A stretch of DNA of 35,674 nucleotides from Nitrososphaerota archaeon (GTDB taxonomy: Archaea > Thermoproteota > Nitrososphaeria > Nitrososphaerales > Nitrosopumilaceae), in assembly GCA_016215465.1 (NCBI GenBank), contig JACRJT010000036.1, forward strand, positions 1-35,674, read 5' to 3'. The notes below the pieces were generated by a model. The model made no database searches, was not told the DNA's origin, and saw nothing but the letters and a program-made list of their open reading frames with translations. Each line of letters begins with the position of its first letter. The first letter of the stretch is position 1. The translations under genes and the position numbers were made by a program. Below are positions 5,802 to 21,492 of the stretch, one piece after another.

Positions 5802-6020
5802 CTCAGTGTTGATAGCACCTGTTTTGTGTGATTTTTAGGAATGGTGAGTTAACACCGTTATCTCTATTGCCCGATGTGATGAATGCGTAATGATATGCGT
5901 GAGTTTTCGAAGATGTGTTAATTGTGGAAGGGAATTTGAGGACTAGATATCGTCTTGAGGCAAAGTCTGACGGCGACATCGGTGTTTTAGAGAGAAAGCA
6001 TCCTGAGCCATTTTGCACAC

Positions 6021-6211
6021 AAAACCGGGTCCAAAATAGGCCCAAAATGGGTACTGGTTCCCACTAGACCCAACCTGTGGAAGCTAATATCTAATTCAAA
6101 TCCAAAACTGTCAGCACATTTATCAAAAATTAATAATCAGTATAACATACACTAACTAGGATCTAATTTTCAAGACACCGCTAACAGCATGCAGACCTTC
6201 GGGCCCATTTT
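6021..6211 (+). repeat. composite dispersed repeat, copy A
   Basis: The right part (6110-6211) matches 9183-9284 over 102 ungapped bases with 13 mismatches by eye. The left part (6021-6075) matches 21160-21214 over 55 bases with about 14 mismatches. The element ends in TTCGGGCCCA followed by T-rich DNA. It stands immediately downstream of hicA pair 2. Confidence 0.8.
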
Positions 6212-6643: not shown

Positions 6644-6714
6644 CTAATATGGAATAGCCTTTTTAATTATTTAAGTTTCCTCAAATTCGATACTATTTGC
6701 TACCACTGGAATCC

Positions 6715-6755
6715 AAATCTAGTTCAATATTACTGACAATCCCTTCGGGCCCGTT
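6715..6755 (+). repeat. dispersed repeat, short copy B
   Basis: This 41-base stretch differs from 21267-21307 at five positions by eye and ends in CCCTTCGGGCCCGTT. It lies between hicB pair 2 and the caspase gene, so it serves as the right border of one and the left border of the other. Confidence 0.75.
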
Positions 6756-6813
6756 TTAATTTGGTCAATTAAAGAAAATTTTTTCTACTTGAATCTGGTA
6801 TGTAGATCATCTT

Positions 6814-9152: not shown

Positions 9153-9284
9153 GAAGACAATCTTTGATTCGAAACCGTCACTGTCAGCACATTTATCAAA
9201 AATTAATAATCAATACTACATGCACTAACTAGGATCTAATTTTCAGAAAACCGCTAATAGTACGCAGATCTTCGAGCCCGTTTT
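9153..9284 (+). repeat. composite dispersed repeat, copy C
   Basis: Bases 9183-9284 match 6110-6211 with 13 differences in 102 positions and no gap, and weaker similarity extends left to about 9153. It ends in TTCGAGCCCG and a run of T. It follows the caspase gene directly, so the HicAB pair and caspase gene lie between two direct copies. Confidence 0.8.
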
Positions 9285-9294
9285 TAAGATAATT

Positions 9295-10827
9295 TCAAAA
9301 ACTAGCTGTTTTTGAATTTGGATTTTGTGGTAATGTTATTGTAAAAACTGTTGGAGGTGATTTAACAGATATGCTTCCACCATGAGCTGCCACAATATCA
9401 CGAACGCTAGAAAGACCAAGACCGGTCCCGTGTATCTTTGTGGTAAACAAAGGCTGAAACATTTTGTCAATATTTTCTTTTTGTATTCCACTTCCTGAGT
9501 CTTCAAATTCTATGATTAGATTATTTTTTTCAGTTCTGGTGCGTATTATAATACTTCCATCATTTTTTCCTATGGCATCAACTGCATTAGATAAAATATT
9601 ACTAAAGGCAATTGCCAATTGAATCTTGTCTGCCATGAGAGAAAAATCGTTTTCTGGCAGTTTTACTGATATACTTTTTGGCATCGGTACGTATTTGATA
9701 GAATCATCCAACACGCTAGAAATTGAGATTAGTCTGATATCTAGCGGCATTGTTTTGACAAATCGTAATACTTGGTTTATCTGATGTGTGATTCTAAATA
9801 CCGCGTCGCTAATCATTGGAATATATTCATCGAGTTTTGGGTCTAGTTTTTTTTCGACTCTCATCTGAATGCCCTCAGTTGCTAATTTAATTAGGCTTAG
9901 TGGGTTTCGCAAGTCATGAGAGATTCTCGCAGTGATTTCACCTATTGCGGAAAGCCTCTCTTTTTTGATTAGTTCGTTTTGTGTTTCTATGATAACTTTA
10001 GATTGATTTTTTGTTTTTTCAAATAGAATCACCACAAATAATATGATGATCCCAATTATGATCATCAGACTTGGAAGGATTACATCAAGAAAGTAGTAAA
10101 GTGATTTTGTAGATTTTGCATTATCTGCTAAAATGGCTTTTGAATATTCTGTCGTGTGCTTACCTCCAATCTCTACCTGATCTCCTCTTATTCCGTCATT
10201 TACAAAATAGTCGTCCCATTCTTTGGAAAAAGATACTACCAGTCCAGTCACAGGCTCAACTGAGATTGTACATTTTCCATCAGAGTGGATCTTTTTAGAT
10301 GGAAATTGAGGAAAAGCTGAAGACACATCAACTCCGTTATATTTACATGAAAAATCATAAACCTCAAGATCATTGATAGTTTTTACTTTATCGAAAACAA
10401 AAGTGGTTTTAGTAAACATCATCGGATAAAAAAATTCGTAGTTTTTCTTTTGAACATTTGGAGGGAATGTGAAATACTCGTCCACATTTTGGTGCTTTCT
10501 GCTACTTCTATCGACAAAAAAGGTCTGAGCATTATCAAAGATAACCTGATTTGTTGCAGAATCTATGCCGGTTACTTTGGATGTAATCTCCAGAATGTTG
10601 CCATTAACCTTAACCGCCTTCTCTCTTAGCGTCTCTCTTATCCAGAATGGATCAGAAATATTCCCATTTAGAGATTCCAATACTCGATCTTGGCCCTCGT
10701 GTTCAGATATTAGTTCATAGTTTATTGGAATTTTTTTCATTTCATCAACAAATACTTCATACGTGATTATACTAGAAAGAATAATCAAAGAACCTATGAT
10801 CAGTTTTAATCTAATATGAAGATTCAT
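9295..10827 (-). CDS. membrane sensor histidine kinase
   Basis: With the ATG at 10827 the protein has 510 residues. It starts with a short basic stretch and TM1 (LIIGSLIILSSIITYEVF), followed by a large extracellular domain of about 220 residues. TM2 (FLDVILPSLMIIIGIIILFV) precedes a linker helix, the HisKA domain with ARISHDLRNPL (phospho-acceptor His), and a HATPase domain with the N box (NILSNAVDAI), G1 box (DSGSGI), F box and G2 box (GTGLGLSSV). The extracellular part (YPMMFTKTTFVFDKV, later VSFSKEWDDYFVNDG) resembles the PorA/DUF3068-type exported domain; that is tentative. The longer start at 10950 was rejected because the extra 41 residues precede TM1 and a TATA-like box lies about 20-30 bases upstream of 10827. 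It is divergent from a response regulator, presumably its partner. Confidence 0.82.
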   Translation of the reverse strand: MNLHIRLKLIIGSLIILSSIITYEVFVDEMKKIPINYELISEHEGQDRVLESLNGNISDPFWIRETLREKAVKVNGNILEITSKVTGIDSATNQVIFDNAQTFFVDRSSRKHQNVDEYFTFPPNVQKKNYEFFYPMMFTKTTFVFDKVKTINDLEVYDFSCKYNGVDVSSAFPQFPSKKIHSDGKCTISVEPVTGLVVSFSKEWDDYFVNDGIRGDQVEIGGKHTTEYSKAILADNAKSTKSLYYFLDVILPSLMIIIGIIILFVVILFEKTKNQSKVIIETQNELIKKERLSAIGEITARISHDLRNPLSLIKLATEGIQMRVEKKLDPKLDEYIPMISDAVFRITHQINQVLRFVKTMPLDIRLISISSVLDDSIKYVPMPKSISVKLPENDFSLMADKIQLAIAFSNILSNAVDAIGKNDGSIIIRTRTEKNNLIIEFEDSGSGIQKENIDKMFQPLFTTKIHGTGLGLSSVRDIVAAHGGSISVKSPPTVFTITLPQNPNSKTASF

Positions 10828-10937
10828 CATGCAATCTCTGGCATGGTCACATATTAAGAAATTATGAATTCTTTGGATTGAGTTGAAGGATTCAATATGG
10901 AACTCAAATATGTAATGTTCCATAACAATCTGTATCT

Positions 10938-10950
10938 GTTTAAATAACAA
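10938..10950 (+). promoter_or_regulatory. probable TATA-like promoter of the response regulator
   Basis: GTTTAAATAACAA lies about 19-31 bases before the TTG start at 10969, the spacing expected for an archaeal leaderless transcript. It would overlap the N-terminal coding region of the kinase if that gene began at 10950, which is another reason to prefer 10827. Confidence 0.45.
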
Positions 10951-10968
10951 TCGCTTTCGAAAATAGTA

Positions 10969-11340
10969 TTGATTACGTGTATTGTGATAGATGATGATAA
11001 AAATACGACCAAAGTTTTTGCAGACATTCTTGAACTAATGGGGTTGGAGATAGTTGGACAGGGATATAGTGGAGATGATGCTGTATCCCTATACCAAAGT
11101 TATCATCCCGACATTGCTTTCATTGACATAGTAATGCCACAAAAGAATGGATTTTATGCACTTGAAAAGATCAGGGAATGTGACCCTAATGCAAAAGTCG
11201 TTGCAGTTACAGCGGATTTTACTCTGGAAACACAGCAAAAATTAGAGGGTATGAAGATCTCTGCAATAATCTACAAACCATTTAATCAAAATGAAATAAA
11301 ACGAGTTTTATTGGAAAAATACAACATTAAAGTCGTATGA
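10969..11340 (+). CDS. stand-alone response regulator receiver (CheY-like)
   Basis: This 123-residue single receiver domain starts with TTG at 10969. The acidic cluster is IDDD (residues 7-10), the phospho-acceptor is Asp 53 in FIDIVMP, the switch Thr lies in VAVTADF, and the invariant Lys is in YKPF. There is no DNA-binding or enzymatic output domain, so the signal must pass by protein contact, as is common for archaeal receiver-only regulators. The gene is divergent from the histidine kinase, and the two most likely form one two-component system. Confidence 0.88.
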   Translation: MITCIVIDDDKNTTKVFADILELMGLEIVGQGYSGDDAVSLYQSYHPDIAFIDIVMPQKNGFYALEKIRECDPNAKVVAVTADFTLETQQKLEGMKISAIIYKPFNQNEIKRVLLEKYNIKVV

Positions 11341-13636: not shown

Positions 13637-13652
13637 CTTTACAATTGTAAAG
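13637..13652. promoter_or_regulatory. perfect 16-bp palindromic operator, site 1
   Basis: CTTTACAATTGTAAAG is a perfect palindrome. It lies four bases before an AT-rich TATA-like stretch (TTAATTAAAATATC) and 85 bases upstream of the beta-propeller gene. A copy differing at one base in the centre occurs at 16596-16611 in the copper-gene control region, which suggests a common regulator. Confidence 0.75.
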
Positions 13653-13736
13653 TGGTTAATTAAAATATCATGGATTTTGAAACGACTCAATCTGGACAAA
13701 CTGTTTTATTCATGCAAAAATGGGTGCACAATGTAA

Positions 13737-14657
13737 ATGAGTCAAGGAAAAAACAGAATCAAAAAAATTGTTATTGTAGCATCTATTGCAATAGCAATTG
13801 GTATGTCTTTTGCAACCAATCTTCAGATACCAGAGTCTGAAACCACACAAAATCCAAGGACTGTATTTTGGCGACACGTTCACGGTCTTGGGATTGATCC
13901 TTCAGACAGAAATATTTTGTACATAGCAACACATGGTGACTTTTATCAAAGCGTAAACGGCAGCCCGCCACTCAAAGTAGATGAGCAAAGAGCCGATTAC
14001 ATGGCATTTGATGCACCATATTCTCAAGGTATTCCATTATACGCAAGCGGACATCCTGCAACTGGTGGAAACACTGGGTTGATCAAAAGCACAGACGGCG
14101 GCAAAACATGGCAACAAGTGGCGACCATATTGGATCCGCCAGTTGATTTTCATGCAATGGACGTAAGCAAATCCAATCCTGAAATAATAATTGGATTTGA
14201 TAGTGCTGAAAGGGGTCTGTTCAAAACTGTGGATGCTGGACAAAACTGGCAAAAGTTGGAATTTCCTGATTATGTTTCGGCACTTGCAATTTCTCCAACT
14301 AATCCAAATCTGGTATTTGTTGGAACTGGAAATGGAATATACCAATCAAGTGATGGTGCGCAAACTTGGACGAATCTTGAGCAATACGAAGGGTTGTTGG
14401 TATTTGCCCTCACATTTGATGAAAATGAAATACTATATGCCTCAACTGACCAGTTTGGCCTTTCAAAATCTGTAGATCTTGGGAAAACTTGGGAAAAAAT
14501 TAACACGCCAAATCTTACAATAATATGCATTGCTGTTGATGGACAAAACCGCATACTGTATGTGGCAGGGTATGTGCCTGATGGATTTCAAGAAGTCTAC
14601 AAAAGCTCAGATGACGGGAAATCTTGGGATTTGATTGGGACAAACAAGGAATTGTAA
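13737..14657 (+). CDS. exported BNR/beta-propeller protein, F510_1955-like
   Basis: This 306-residue protein has an N-terminal hydrophobic segment (IVIVASIAIAIGMSFA, about 11-26) acting as signal or anchor. The rest forms repeated BNR/sialidase-like blades with the Asp-box form STDGGKTW, later versions being KTVDAGQNW, QSSDGAQTW, KSVDLGKTW and KSSDDGKSW. The opening HVHGLGIDPSD is characteristic of F510_1955-family propellers. No glycosidase active site can be assigned, so the catalytic role suggested by some annotations is not supported here. The upstream palindrome and the Cys-rich gene two bases downstream tie it to the copper island. A role as an extracellular metal or protein chaperone is inference. 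Confidence 0.8.
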   Translation: MSQGKNRIKKIVIVASIAIAIGMSFATNLQIPESETTQNPRTVFWRHVHGLGIDPSDRNILYIATHGDFYQSVNGSPPLKVDEQRADYMAFDAPYSQGIPLYASGHPATGGNTGLIKSTDGGKTWQQVATILDPPVDFHAMDVSKSNPEIIIGFDSAERGLFKTVDAGQNWQKLEFPDYVSALAISPTNPNLVFVGTGNGIYQSSDGAQTWTNLEQYEGLLVFALTFDENEILYASTDQFGLSKSVDLGKTWEKINTPNLTIICIAVDGQNRILYVAGYVPDGFQEVYKSSDDGKSWDLIGTNKEL

Positions 14658-14659
14658 AA

Positions 14660-14794
14660 ATGGTTGAGATTGGTTGTGCTGATTGTGGTTGCTTGTCTTC
14701 TGAGTGCAAAGAATCAAGATCATTGAAAGAGTGTCCTAATTGTACTCGAGATGAATGTTGTTGTTGGAATACAATTGATCGATTAAGCCTCTGA
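14660..14794 (+). CDS. tiny nine-cysteine protein, probable metal binder
   Basis: This 44-residue frame with an ATG start begins two bases after the propeller stop codon, so it is probably co-translated. It contains nine cysteines, arranged CADCGC, SEC, KECPNC and ECCCW, and no other recognisable domain. Such density implies metal coordination in the manner of small metallothionein-like or zinc-ribbon proteins. A frameshifted relative with the same opening pattern (M-E-I-x-C-x-D-C-x-C-x-x-S-E-C-K) lies at 18824-18927 next to the copper ATPase, which supports its being a real gene. It ends directly against the 3' end of the convergent OsmC gene. Confidence 0.7.
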   Translation: MVEIGCADCGCLSSECKESRSLKECPNCTRDECCCWNTIDRLSL

Positions 14795-15325
14795 TTACTG
14801 TATCTGAGCATTGATCTTGATCATATGCGACATGCTATAGACAGCTGGGCAGCGATCCTCTGCCATTTTTACAAGCTGTTGTAATTGTTGCTTGTCGGCA
14901 TTTTCTGCTTGCGCATCAATCTGAAAGTTTATTCCCTCTGTGATTGGCTCATCTGAAATATCAAATGTTTTGGCAAAATTGACATTGCACTCTGCATTGA
15001 CTTCAAGCTTTGTCAGCCTGATTCCTTGAGTGGCTGCTATTCCAACAAAGGTTCCAATAAAACACGAAGTTATGCCTGCAACGCAATAACTCATAGGCCC
15101 AAGTCTATTTCCACCCCCACCAAGAAATGAAGGTGAGTCTATTTCGATTACTTGTTTTCCCTTTTCGTATGCAATCTCGGTTTTGAACTGATAGCCTTTT
15201 GAAGGATCAAAATTCCATTGGCCTTGAAGCTTTACTGGTTTTCTGAGAGTGGATCTGTCTTTTTTTCCATCCTCAATTGTTTTGGAGATTTTGTCCAAAT
15301 CTACATTGTTGAGAGTATTTGTCAT
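14795..15325 (-). CDS. OsmC/Ohr-family protein
   Basis: This 176-residue cytosolic protein has the OsmC fold. The first conserved cysteine is in the helix MSYCVAGITSCFIGTF and the second in EDRCPAVYSM; together they form the redox pair that reduces organic hydroperoxides in OsmC/Ohr enzymes. An additional Cys in the first helix is unusual. The N-terminal 40 residues are a charged extension. It is the last gene of the minus-strand run from the TRASH-like gene. A 38-base gap with a TATA-like CCTATAAGATAC suggests it may also have its own promoter. Thiol peroxidase activity would fit protection against copper-driven oxidative damage (inference). Confidence 0.87.
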   Translation of the reverse strand: MTNTLNNVDLDKISKTIEDGKKDRSTLRKPVKLQGQWNFDPSKGYQFKTEIAYEKGKQVIEIDSPSFLGGGGNRLGPMSYCVAGITSCFIGTFVGIAATQGIRLTKLEVNAECNVNFAKTFDISDEPITEGINFQIDAQAENADKQQLQQLVKMAEDRCPAVYSMSHMIKINAQIQ

Positions 15326-15363
15326 GATGTGATATGGTTACTGTATCTTATAGGAATTTGCAA

Positions 15364-15828
15364 TCATCTAAGTGATGATGCTTCTCTATTGAAATAAGAA
15401 ACAACACTGGGCTTCCACATGTAAAAGAAAACAATCAGATCTAAAATTATATGTGGAATGGCAAAAAGATTGCCCGTCACAAGAGTTGCGCAATGTACGA
15501 TAAAATCTACCATGGATAGCACCATGACTGTTATTCTGCCCCATCTTTTTCCACTAAGTAGGACCCACGCTATCACAAACTCAATTACTGCAAGAATGCC
15601 AACTCCTACTGCAATAACACTTCCAAAAGCTGTCATTGTACTTCCCATCATATTTCCGATCATTGAGGAATAATCTCCCATCATTGAGGTAAATGTCACT
15701 ACCATGACAACAGTCATTATCATGAGAACTCCAAAAATTACGTAAATAATTCCAAGAATGGTGACGCTCGCAGGTCTTTCTGATTGGATTGCTGGTATTT
15801 TAGCATCTGTCACAGCTAAGATCCTCAC
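15364..15828 (-). CDS. four-helix membrane protein with Met-rich loop
   Basis: This 154-residue protein has four predicted membrane segments: about 22-47, 68-92, 98-117 and 122-140. Between the first two lies TSMMGDYSSMIGNMMGSTM, rich in Met like copper-binding loops. No known transporter motif is present. It starts five bases after the stop of the Met-rich exported protein, so it is part of the same operon. The Met clusters and genomic setting suggest a role in Cu(I) handling at the membrane; this is inferred, and the protein could be an unrelated small membrane protein. Confidence 0.72.
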   Translation of the reverse strand: MRILAVTDAKIPAIQSERPASVTILGIIYVIFGVLMIMTVVMVVTFTSMMGDYSSMIGNMMGSTMTAFGSVIAVGVGILAVIEFVIAWVLLSGKRWGRITVMVLSMVDFIVHCATLVTGNLFAIPHIILDLIVFFYMWKPSVVSYFNREASSLR

Positions 15829-15833
15829 ACATG

Positions 15834-16316
15834 TTATTTTCCACCCATCATCATGCCAGAGCCAGTCATGTTTCCTTGCATCATGTGTCTCATTTGCTGC
15901 ATGACTTCTTGATTTTCTGACATGTGCCCAAGCATTTGTAATCTCAAATCAGGATCGTTTATGATGGATAACATCATTTCTTGCATAAACTCGTGATTCG
16001 CTTTCATGGCTTTTGACATTTGTTGTACGTGTTGTGGGTCTTGTGCAATCCACATGTCAACCTGTGCTGGATTTTGCATCATGTTTGACATCATCATTTG
16101 ATTAAACTGCTGATCCCTCATCACTTCCCGCATGAATTGAGGATCCTGAAACATTTCACGCATTAACTGTGGGTTTTTCATAAATTGGTTCATCATTTGT
16201 TGCTGGTTCATCGTCATTGGTGTCGTTTGAGTAGACTGGAATGCGGCATAACCTGTGCCTAATCCTGCAAAAAACACACCTATGATAATTCCTATTACAG
16301 CATACCTGTTAACCAT
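15834..16316 (-). CDS. Met-rich exported protein, probable copper-binding
   Basis: This 160-residue protein has an N-terminal hydrophobic segment (YAVIGIIIGVFFAGLGTGYAA, about 5-25) acting as signal or anchor. The rest is very rich in Met (about 31 of 160) and Gln, with irregular repeats of the type PQFMREVM and runs such as QMMMSNMM and GMMMGGK. Cys is absent. Met clusters of this kind bind Cu(I) outside the cytoplasm in CopC/PcoE-like and related proteins. The gene starts three bases after the TRASH-like gene, and the two are clearly one operon opposite the copper ATPase. Expected role: sequestering copper at the cell surface (inference). Confidence 0.78.
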   Translation of the reverse strand: MVNRYAVIGIIIGVFFAGLGTGYAAFQSTQTTPMTMNQQQMMNQFMKNPQLMREMFQDPQFMREVMRDQQFNQMMMSNMMQNPAQVDMWIAQDPQHVQQMSKAMKANHEFMQEMMLSIINDPDLRLQMLGHMSENQEVMQQMRHMMQGNMTGSGMMMGGK

Positions 16317-16319
16317 GTT

Positions 16320-16505
16320 CTAACAACATCCACCCCGTCTACGCGGATGCTTCCTTTCTTCTTCTGCCATGGCTCTTTCTTGCTCTTCCCTTTTTGTTAC
16401 GTATTGCTGTGCATGGTCGTCTGAGCAAAAGTATTTGCCAAATCGTTTCGGTGAAGTTTTCTTGTCAACTTCAACGCCACAAATTAGGCAATGTTTTTCA
16501 AACAT
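16320..16505 (-). CDS. TRASH/YHS-like small metal-binding protein
   Basis: With the ATG at 16505 this is a 61-residue protein. It has HCLICGVEV, then KYFCSDDHAQQY, a Cys/His pattern of TRASH and YHS-type metal-binding domains. It ends in a charged helix and a terminal RRGGCC with two extra cysteines. The upstream ATG at 16553 would add 16 residues rich in Lys/Phe and was rejected because a TATA-like box (about 16518-16533) falls between them. It is the first gene of the minus-strand copper run and divergent from the ATPase. It may be a cytosolic copper chaperone or a sensor partner; no DNA-binding domain is visible. Confidence 0.72.
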   Translation of the reverse strand: MFEKHCLICGVEVDKKTSPKRFGKYFCSDDHAQQYVTKREEQERAMAEEERKHPRRRGGCC

Positions 16506-16595
16506 GAATGATAGTCTTTGATTTTTATTTTTAAACGTAATTACAAAATTCAAGATTGAAAACTTGTAGAGATGTCATCATACATAAAGATGCAC

Positions 16596-16611
16596 CTTTA
16601 CATTTGTAAAG
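16596..16611. promoter_or_regulatory. 16-bp palindromic operator, site 2 (divergent copper promoters)
   Basis: CTTTACATTTGTAAAG has perfect 7-base arms. It lies between the start of the TRASH-like gene (91 bases away) and that of the ATPase (80 bases away). It matches site 1 at 13637-13652 in 15 of 16 positions. The location upstream of both TATA-like boxes would suit an activator or a repressor acting on both genes. Confidence 0.75.
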
Positions 16612-16673
16612 TTCCATCCACCTCATTATCAGTTCTGATTATCTGATGTTTGTTTAATTTTAAGCAAAACCAT

Positions 16674-16689
16674 TTTTCAAATTGTAAAG
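16674..16689 (+). promoter_or_regulatory. imperfect operator-like site overlapping the ATPase transcription start
   Basis: This stretch ends in AATTGTAAAG and matches site 1 at 13 of 16 positions, with a full right half and a poor left half. It ends one base before the ATPase ATG and would overlap the expected transcription start, a repressor-type position. It may be fortuitous. Confidence 0.35.
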
Positions 16690-16690
16690 A

Positions 16691-18814
16691 ATGGCAAAAG
16701 ATCCTGTCTGTGGAATGATAGTGGATGAAAAGAAAGCACTGCATTCTGAGATAGGCTCAAGAGACTTTTACTTCTGCGGTCCAGCGTGCCAAAAGACCTT
16801 TGTAAATCCCGAAAAAGAACTAGCTAAACTCAAAAAAAGAATGTATGTTGCGGCATCCGGCGCACTTGTTTTGGCCATCCTTCGAGCTGGACTGTATTTG
16901 GGGCTGGCCTTTGGAGCAGTAGCAGTAACATGGGTGCCAATACCACAAATTCCGTTTCTTTCATGGGGAATGCTTTTGTTTCTTATTGTTACGCCTGTCC
17001 AGTTCATTGGCGGGTGGACCTTTTACGTTGGAGCGTATCATTCTATCAAAAGAAGGACTGCCAACATGGATCTTTTAATATCAATTGGCACTCTGGTTGC
17101 ATACTTTTACAGTGTTACGGTTTTGTTCTTTCCCGATGCTCTTCCTGTAAAGGAGCGAGATGTCTACTTTGAGGTATCTGCAGTAATCATCGCTTTTGTG
17201 TTACTTGGGAAATACATGGAAGAGGCAATCAAAAAGAAAAGCTCTGCCGCAGTAAGAAAACTACTTGATCTCAGTCCAGCCATGGCACGGATACTAAAGG
17301 ACGTACAGGAGATTGAAATTCCCGCAAATCAAGTTCAGGTGGGAGACATTCTTGTCATAAGACCTGGTGAAAAAATCCCTACTGATGGAATCATAATTGA
17401 AGGAAATTCCGCAATAGATGAAAAAATGATAACGGGTGAAAGCCTACCTGTGGACAAATCGGTGGGCGATCAGGTAATTGGTGCCACCATTAACAAACAA
17501 GGATTGCTAAAAGTCAAGGCAACCAAAGTGGGAAATGAAACGGCACTGTCACAAATCATTCACATTGTTGAGCAAGCGCAGGCTTCAACAGGCCACATAC
17601 AAAGACTTGTTGATTCGATATCAGCAAAGTTTGTTCCAGCTGTTGTGTTGATAGCGGTTGGCGCATTCATAGTATGGTTTTTTGTTTTTGGCAATTTCAT
17701 TACTGGACTACTTTCATTTGTTGCAGTATTGATAATTGCGTGCCCCTGTGCCATGGGAATTGCAACGCCAGCTGCCCTGATGGTAGGAGTTGGAAAAGGT
17801 GCCGAAGCTGGAATTTTGATACGAGGTGCTGAATATCTCGAACTCTCTCAAAAAATCAAAACCATAGTATTTGACAAAACTGGCACCATAACAAAAGGAG
17901 AGCCATCCGTAACTGATGTGGTTTCTTTTGGTTCACATTCTAAAGAAAATTTGATAGCATTTGCAGGCTCAGTGGAAATGGGCTCAGAGCATCCTCTAGC
18001 TCAGGCAATCGTAAGTGAGGCAAGACAAAAGGAAATCCCTCTGAAAAGTCCTGCAGAATTTGAAGCAGTTTCAGGCATGGGAGTAAAGGCCATTGTAAGC
18101 GGCAGGCAGGTCTTGTTTGGAAACCGAAAACTGATGCAAAAATTTGGAATTGCAACTGATAAAATCGAGCAAGAAATGGGAAATCTTGAATCTCAGGGAA
18201 AGACTGTGATGATTGTTGCAGTTGATCAGAATGTATCTGGGCTTGTCGCAGTAGCCGACACCATAAAGGAATCATCAAAGGACGCAATTTCTGATCTGAA
18301 AAAGCTCGGAATTGAGACCATAATGCTTACAGGCGATAATGAAAAAACTGCAAATTCAGTTGCAAAAACAGTTGGAATCGACAAAGTGATTGCAAATGTG
18401 TTGCCAGCTGAAAAGGCAAACGTCATAAAAAAACTGCAATCTGAGAGAAAAGTTGTTGCAATGGTCGGAGATGGAATCAATGATGCGCCAGCTCTAGCAC
18501 AGGCAGACATCGGCATTGCAATTGGTAGCGGTTCGGACATTGCAAAAGAGACCGGCGGAATCATACTCATCAAAGACGACATCATGGATGTTGCGCGAGC
18601 TGTTAGGCTGAGTCGTGCTACCATGAAGAAAATAAAACAAAACTTGTTTTGGGCTTTAGCCTATAACACGGGCGCAATTCCAATAGCTGCCATTGGTCTG
18701 CTTAATCCAATAATTGCCGCAGCTGCAATGGCATTAAGCTCTATTTCGGTTATAGCAAATTCGACCTTACTAAAAAGATTCAAGCTTCCAGAGGGTGTAG
18801 TAAAAAATGAATAA
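16691..18814 (+). CDS. copA: copper-transporting P1B-type ATPase with N-terminal YHS domain
   Basis: This 707-residue protein opens with a YHS domain at residues 3-46 ([10 protein letters not shown], later FYFCGPACQ) in place of the usual HMA domains. The P1B ATPase core follows: CPC at residues 351-353 in the sixth membrane helix ([13 protein letters not shown]), TGES in the actuator domain, phosphorylation site Asp 395 in [15 protein letters not shown] in the nucleotide domain, and [10 protein letters not shown] in the hinge. The last helices carry YN and [10 protein letters not shown], the Cu(I)-type signature, so it should export Cu(I). A TATA-like GTTTAATTTTAAGC lies at 16651-16664. It is divergent from the TRASH/Met-rich run and shares the palindromic operator. 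Confidence 0.93.
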
Positions 18815-18823
18815 ACTGCATTC

Positions 18824-18927
18824 CTAGCAACAGCAATCTGTCCATGTATAATTAGGACATTCCTTTGTAGGTTTGCTGTTTTACATTCTGATGGCGGGCA
18901 ATCACAATCTGTACATGAAATTTCCAT
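18824..18927 (-). pseudogene. frameshifted paralogue of the nine-cysteine protein
   Basis: The frame begins with ATG at 18927 and encodes a Cys-rich opening (CTDCDC, SEC) like that of the protein at 14660-14794. After the AAAA run following the SEC codons the homologous sequence continues in another frame as KECPNYTWTDCCC and ends with TAG at 18824-18826. Adding one A to the run restores a 34-residue protein similar to the intact relative. Without it, the opening frame runs on as unrelated sequence into the ATPase gene. It is either a true pseudogene or a sequence error in a homopolymer. It converges with the ATPase, with a gap of nine bases. Confidence 0.7.
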
Positions 18928-18984
18928 AGGATTGATGTGAGATCAAATAAATGAGTTTTCTCAACGTCTATTTCGTTATTTGAT

Positions 18985-21119: not shown

Positions 21120-21492
21120 TAATGAGTCCAAAACAAAGGATCAGCATTATCTGTCTTACAAAATTGGGTCTAAAATAGTTCCATGATGGATACCGAATCC
21201 CACTAGATTCAAACCGAGTCTAAAAATAACTTCCACAAGAACTCTAATCTGGAAGAATTTGAACCTAAATTTAGTCCAATATTGTTGACAATTCCTTCGG
21301 GCCCGTTGAAATTATTTTTGAATAGAAATCAACCTAACCTTACTGGATTTGATGAACTTGTACATTTTAAGATTGAAATTTACGCATAAACAAGTCCAAA
21401 ATTAGCTTAATGTTTAGAGTATTACTTCAATTAATCAATCAATAATACAATCTGGACAACATTTATTTCGACGATAAAGTCGGATCCAAGAC
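21120..21492. other. gene-free stretch with long repeat element and promoter
   Basis: No gene was seen. Bases 21160-21307 form the largest outlying copy of the dispersed repeat. The region close to the hydratase holds a TATA-like CATTTATTTC (about 21459-21468) some 24 bases before the ATG at 21493, consistent with a short or absent leader. Confidence 0.6.
21160..21307 (+). repeat. composite dispersed repeat, copy D
   Basis: Bases 21160-21214 match 6021-6075 (about 75 percent by eye) and 21267-21307 match 6715-6755 (36 of 41). It includes GAATCCCACTAGATTC, an inverted repeat with GAATC/GATTC arms, and ends in TTCGGGCCCG. Unlike the other copies it stands beside core genes rather than toxin or defence genes. 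Confidence 0.75.

Follow-up and report, generated by a model that had tools for sequence, protein, structure and literature searches.

A 16-bp palindrome as probable operator of a CopR/CopT-type copper regulator in ammonia-oxidising archaea

Introduction

CopR of Pyrococcus furiosus is a regulator with an Lrp/AsnC HTH and a TRASH domain whose gene is divergent from copA, and its semi-palindromic motif, TTNNCAWWWTGNNAA, sits directly upstream of the BRE at several genomic targets (PMC7830388). A TRASH-HTH regulator is likewise found beside a copper ATPase in the CopT/CopR cop cluster of Sulfolobus/Saccharolobus (cited in both PMC7830388 and PMC7785015); the likeness of that cluster to the system described here is one of gene arrangement. 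In an ammonia-oxidising archaeon, Nitrososphaera viennensis, which has CopA, CopZ and CopT, the CopT gene is clustered with that of CopA2 (PMC7785015). The copper study of this organism (2020) called the regulation of the cop genes open and assigned no operator, and the copper-limitation motifs given there differ from the palindrome discussed below (PMC7785015). Among Gram-positive bacteria, the CopY cop box, with the core TACANNTGTA, precedes copper exporter genes (PMC7253601).

Here we analysed a window of 35,674 nucleotides, positions 1 to 35,674 of contig JACRJT010000036.1 of a Nitrososphaerota archaeon (assembly GCA_016215465.1), together with the rest of its genome and those of its relatives. 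From sequence comparison, we consider it highly probable that a CopR/CopT-type copper regulator of ammonia-oxidising archaea uses the 16-bp dyad CTTTACA-NN-TGTAAAG as its operator. With a 16-bp operator and a named regulator gene, the unexplained copper control in these archaea of the nitrogen cycle becomes directly testable. The dyad can be used to look for the regulon in ammonia-oxidising archaeal genomes, and operator and regulator together draw attention to uncharacterised proteins with a probable role in copper handling in the cell envelope. We found no earlier description of this operator for ammonia-oxidising archaea in the literature searched, which covered few subscription papers, so that the novelty is provisional.

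Results

Both palindromes listed in the initial annotation are perfect and exact, and they are far more than chance would give. Putative operator 1 (13637-13652, CTTTACAATTGTAAAG) reads CTTTACA-AT-TGTAAAG and lies upstream of a propeller/Cys-rich unit to its right. Putative operator 2 (16596-16611, CTTTACATTTGTAAAG) reads CTTTACA-TT-TGTAAAG and separates an ATPase unit on the plus strand from a divergent TRASH-like/Met-rich unit on the minus strand, so that the flanking units are those described before. When the assembly (1.70 Mb, 53 contigs, 96% complete) was scanned, the exact 16-mer was found twice, both times within the window, where a first-order Markov model predicts 0.012 exact and 0.52 one-mismatch matches per genome by chance. 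One further match had one mismatch and eight had two. As all eight two-mismatch matches sit within ORFs and were excluded as targets, the genome appears to hold three putative operators, and all three of these sites with at most one mismatch precede copper genes. Many sites in front of genes unrelated to metals, which would have spoken against a copper regulon, were thus not seen. The suggestion that a genome scan would lead to other copper genes held in part: it revealed a site shared by CopA and a TRASH-HTH protein, and no site with at most one mismatch before a multicopper oxidase or plastocyanin gene in this genome.

A third, weaker copy had been taken to overlap the ATPase start. This site (16674-16689, TTTTCAAATTGTAAAG) has three mismatches, where 2.75 matches with up to three mismatches are expected by chance per window. 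It ends at 16689 and abuts the ATPase ATG at 16691 without overlapping it. In close orthologues, it is retained partly in L120 and gone in L121. We rejected it as an operator, since the match is at chance level and its dyad is not conserved in these two loci.

The one-mismatch site lies on another contig, C35 (G000:C35:9036; L003:1501-1516), between divergent genes for the copper ATPase CopA, with two HMA domains, and for a TRASH-HTH protein. The latter, our candidate regulator, has 142 aa, and its gene (G000:C35:9084-9512) is not part of the window; the protein combines an N-terminal AsnC-type HTH (PF13404, 4.6e-13) with a C-terminal TRASH domain (PF08394, 28.0 bits; cut-off 27). It is the only TRASH-HTH protein that a TRASH family search of the genome returned, the other match over the cut-off being a lone 56-aa frame. 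Its close relatives occur in Candidatus Nitrosotenuis, Nitrosarchaeum, Nitrosotalea and further archaea of the group. The best matches are from Nitrosotenuis, which is the most likely origin of the window, and the orthologue of Nitrosotenuis chungbukensis is 91% identical. In an alignment of 31 regulators (<90% mutual identity) the TRASH cysteines and many HTH residues are invariant. The earlier expectation that the regulator acts from outside the window agrees with this gene, which shares its near-perfect site with copA. Among the regulator types then proposed, TRASH-HTH is favoured by the single such protein of the genome, by the dyad upstream of its gene and by the conservation of this arrangement across the family. 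The C35 protein is therefore likely to be the missing regulator.

The first gene behind operator 1 encodes a BNR-type propeller protein of the F510_1955 family (13737-14657, plus strand; NCBIfam NF045728, 197.9 bits, cut-off 175; PF15902, PF14870), which is probably exported. It is followed by the gene of a 44-aa Cys-rich protein (14660-14794, plus strand), and the same order is found in several relatives. Fifteen of the 27 propeller orthologues read have a site with at most two mismatches upstream.

Operator 2 is exact in L121 and has one mismatch in L120, the orthologues being 92% identical. To its left, on the minus strand, lies the gene of a 61-aa TRASH-like treble-clef protein (16320-16505), recognised by its Cys/His pattern; no Pfam model scored over its cut-off, and the protein gave a weak treble-clef match at most. 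Its orthologues have the dyad upstream, as do those of the Met-rich protein encoded next (15834-16316, minus strand; L067, L068, L024), which has an N-terminal hydrophobic segment. A membrane protein gene (15364-15828, minus strand) is possibly co-transcribed with this unit, and an OsmC-like gene (14795-15325, minus strand; PF02566, 5.8e-16) is possibly its last member. To the right, on the plus strand, a P1B ATPase with an N-terminal YHS-like domain (16691-18814) matches TIGR01511, the copper subfamily model, with 583.6 bits (cut-off 397). Its translation carries CPC, YN and MxxSS, which are signatures of Cu+ ATPases.

The distance from the end of the dyad to the start codon is usually 29-40 nt at the genes of the regulator and of copper ATPases, with an AT-rich TATA-like stretch about 7-15 nt beyond the dyad. 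The palindromic site thus lies directly upstream of the predicted promoter core, as reported for CopR of P. furiosus (PMC7830388). Operator 1 seems to have this geometry toward the propeller unit, with a predicted TATA box (ttaaaatatc, 13660-13669, plus strand) 8-17 nt past it and a predicted transcript start near 13690; this layout recurs in L166 and at other operators. Operator 2 seems to have it on the minus strand, where a predicted TATA-like box for the TRASH-like/Met-rich unit (CTTTATGTAT, 16580-16589) adjoins the dyad and a similar stretch is present in L120 and L121. The predicted TATA box of the ATPase (16652-16664, plus strand), also retained in L120 and L121, is separated from operator 2 by 41 nt, a wider gap than the usual 7-15 nt, and both orthologues keep this layout. 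Operator 2 would thus be expected to act in the standard manner on the TRASH-like/Met-rich unit and to reach the ATPase at a distance or via a larger Lrp assembly. The interval from operator 2 to the TATA box of the ATPase contains a block gattatcag-ttctg-attatctgatg (16623-16650), which is largely retained in L121 and could be a second regulatory element.

Of 201 genomes of relatives, 43 had the exact motif; the backward control pattern occurred in 11 by our own count. The regulator was detected in 36 of the 43 motif genomes and in 44 of the other 158 (Fisher p = 3.5e-11, an optimistic value as such co-occurrence tests ignore shared ancestry), and the association holds both within the family and outside it. 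Seven genomes have the exact motif and no regulator at E <= 1e-10, and 44 have the regulator without the exact motif, some of them with the one-mismatch form. When the regions upstream of TRASH-HTH genes were inspected, the dyad was found with at most one mismatch in 42 of 48 distinct regions, and shuffles of these 48 sequences rarely had fewer than four mismatches. An unbiased search for any 6-mer dyad with a spacer of 0-10 in 40 non-redundant regulator upstream regions returned TTTACA-N2-TGTAAA in 32 of them, with no dyad above 2 in the shuffled controls (n = 50). The spacer is 2 nt at every site found. Most columns of the palindrome hold about 2 bits of information, its outermost C and G hold 1.6 and 1.1 bits, and the flanks mostly <1 bit.

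Of the exact sites, we then inspected 56 distinct ones; almost all are intergenic. By our count, 49 directly adjoin a copper, metal-binding, thiol-redox or site-recurrent gene, the adjoining genes encoding TRASH-HTH, P1B ATPase, Met-rich, TRASH-like, HMA, YtkA, DsbA, DsbD, DoxX, small Zn-ribbon and propeller proteins; the other seven (L017, L019, L020, L066, L077, L079, L083) have no assignable target. In L003 and many relatives, the regulator gene is linked to a gene for a copper ATPase, frequently in divergent orientation. The dyad accompanies the regulator gene also where DsbD, DsbA or another gene takes the place of copA next to it, and this links the site to the regulator, as autoregulation would predict. 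These computational results argue for the copper regulon first proposed from the window, as the dyad precedes regulator and copper genes across the family and co-occurs with the regulator over the 201 genomes.

Outside the order, exact matches within the phylum were few, and eight were read (L169-L176). One of these (L169:1501-1516) lies 37 nt before a copper ATPase gene with a distant TRASH-HTH gene close by, and in L170 a TRASH-HTH relative lies near the exact site; the copper query set matched nothing at the remaining six. Judging by L169, the operator may predate this group of ammonia oxidisers.

Discussion

The system belongs to the CopR/CopT kind, as judged from the domains of the regulator, the order of the genes and the position of the site. 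The half-sites TT..CA and TG..AA of P. furiosus are compatible with TTTACA and TGTAAA here. The sites differ in spacer, 3 nt (WWW) in P. furiosus versus 2 nt here, and in symmetry, the motif of P. furiosus being semi-palindromic and the 16-bp dyad near-perfect. Thus the consensus TTNNCAWWWTGNNAA with its 3-nt spacer is not found here; we regard it as a feature specific to P. furiosus, not one shown to define the family. Unlike P. furiosus CopR, the 142-aa regulator has no visible His-rich tail, and its putative targets include the propeller gene, the TRASH-like/Met-rich unit, YtkA and DsbA/DsbD, which are not those of P. furiosus.

The TRASH-HTH regulator, by its N-terminal Lrp/AsnC winged HTH, would occupy the dyad as a dimer or a larger Lrp-type assembly, just upstream of the BRE/TATA region. 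Cu+ held by the TRASH cysteines would then alter transcription of genes for copper export and for copper handling in the envelope, namely the ATPase and TRASH-like/Met-rich units, the propeller/Cys-rich unit, copA and the regulator's own gene. Copper as the signal is suggested by the target genes and by the TRASH family. By analogy with Pyrococcus, we lean towards activation of the export genes as the mode of control. The increase of copA2 under copper limitation in N. viennensis is a poor fit to a simple export regulon (PMC7785015).

The same regulator and operator could also work by derepression, the protein being a repressor released by copper, which we hold to be less probable than activation. 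PMC7830388 cites a report of CopR as a repressor in T. onnurineus, and in several regulator promoters only a few nt separate the dyad from the TATA-like stretch, so that a bound protein could block TFB/TBP. However, copA is described as being under positive control by CopR in P. furiosus, S. solfataricus and H. salinarum (PMC7830388), and at most targets the dyad lies upstream of the promoter core rather than on top of it.

It is improbable that some other regulator reads the dyad and controls the copper genes and the TRASH-HTH gene alike. The seven motif genomes in which no close TRASH-HTH protein was detected would allow for it, but the site tracks the TRASH-HTH gene through every change of neighbours, as autoregulation predicts.

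The core of the dyad is identical to the cop box TACANNTGTA (PMC7253601), yet recognition by a CopY/BlaI-type repressor, an option named in the initial annotation, is very hard to credit: no PF03965 protein of the assembly, which is 96% complete, exceeds the 22.6-bit cut-off, the best weak matches do not read as CopY, and the outer C and G of the dyad violate the refined CopY consensus RNYKACANNTGTMRNY (PMC7253601). With outer positions that break this consensus, an unrelated regulator family and no CopY protein found in the genome, the likeness to the cop box looks like convergence. Equally implausible is a CopRS-like control of the copper genes by the histidine kinase/response regulator pair of the window (9295-11340), which lies about 2.3 kb from operator 1, as its response regulator consists of one receiver of 123 aa, which leaves no room for a DNA-binding domain, and the kinase does not recur at motif loci.

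Returning to the TRASH-HTH regulator and its dyad, we think it somewhat probable that they form a lineage-wide copper regulon in ammonia-oxidising archaea, with an Lrp/TRASH regulator, an operator converged on the CopY cop box and a previously unassigned module for copper handling in the envelope. This module would comprise the propeller, small Zn-ribbon, Cys-rich, Met-rich and YtkA proteins as well as DsbA/DsbD.

Several minor features were also observed. In L023, L037, L041 and L043, small Zn-ribbon-like ORFs of 53-70 aa (KHCQVDDIKICTRCGS...CNDCNAILCFEH) stand directly behind the dyad; such ORFs recur close to the genes of propeller proteins or CopA. The one in L041 looks decayed, and the window seems to lack any. 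Behind the ATPase gene, a second small Cys-rich ORF (18805-18930, minus strand) reads MEISCTDCDCPPSECK... and then, in another frame, ...KECPNYTWTDCCC; it is either a frameshift-broken paralogue of the gene at 14660 or an assembly error, and an intact relative is present in L131. The histidine kinase and single-domain response regulator genes are divergent and lie near the copper genes. The window also holds dispersed, non-coding-looking repeats (6019-6211, 6709-6761, 9153-9284 and 21158-21313) with 76-83% identity over 53-132 nt, some of which contain a CCTTCGGGCCCG core.
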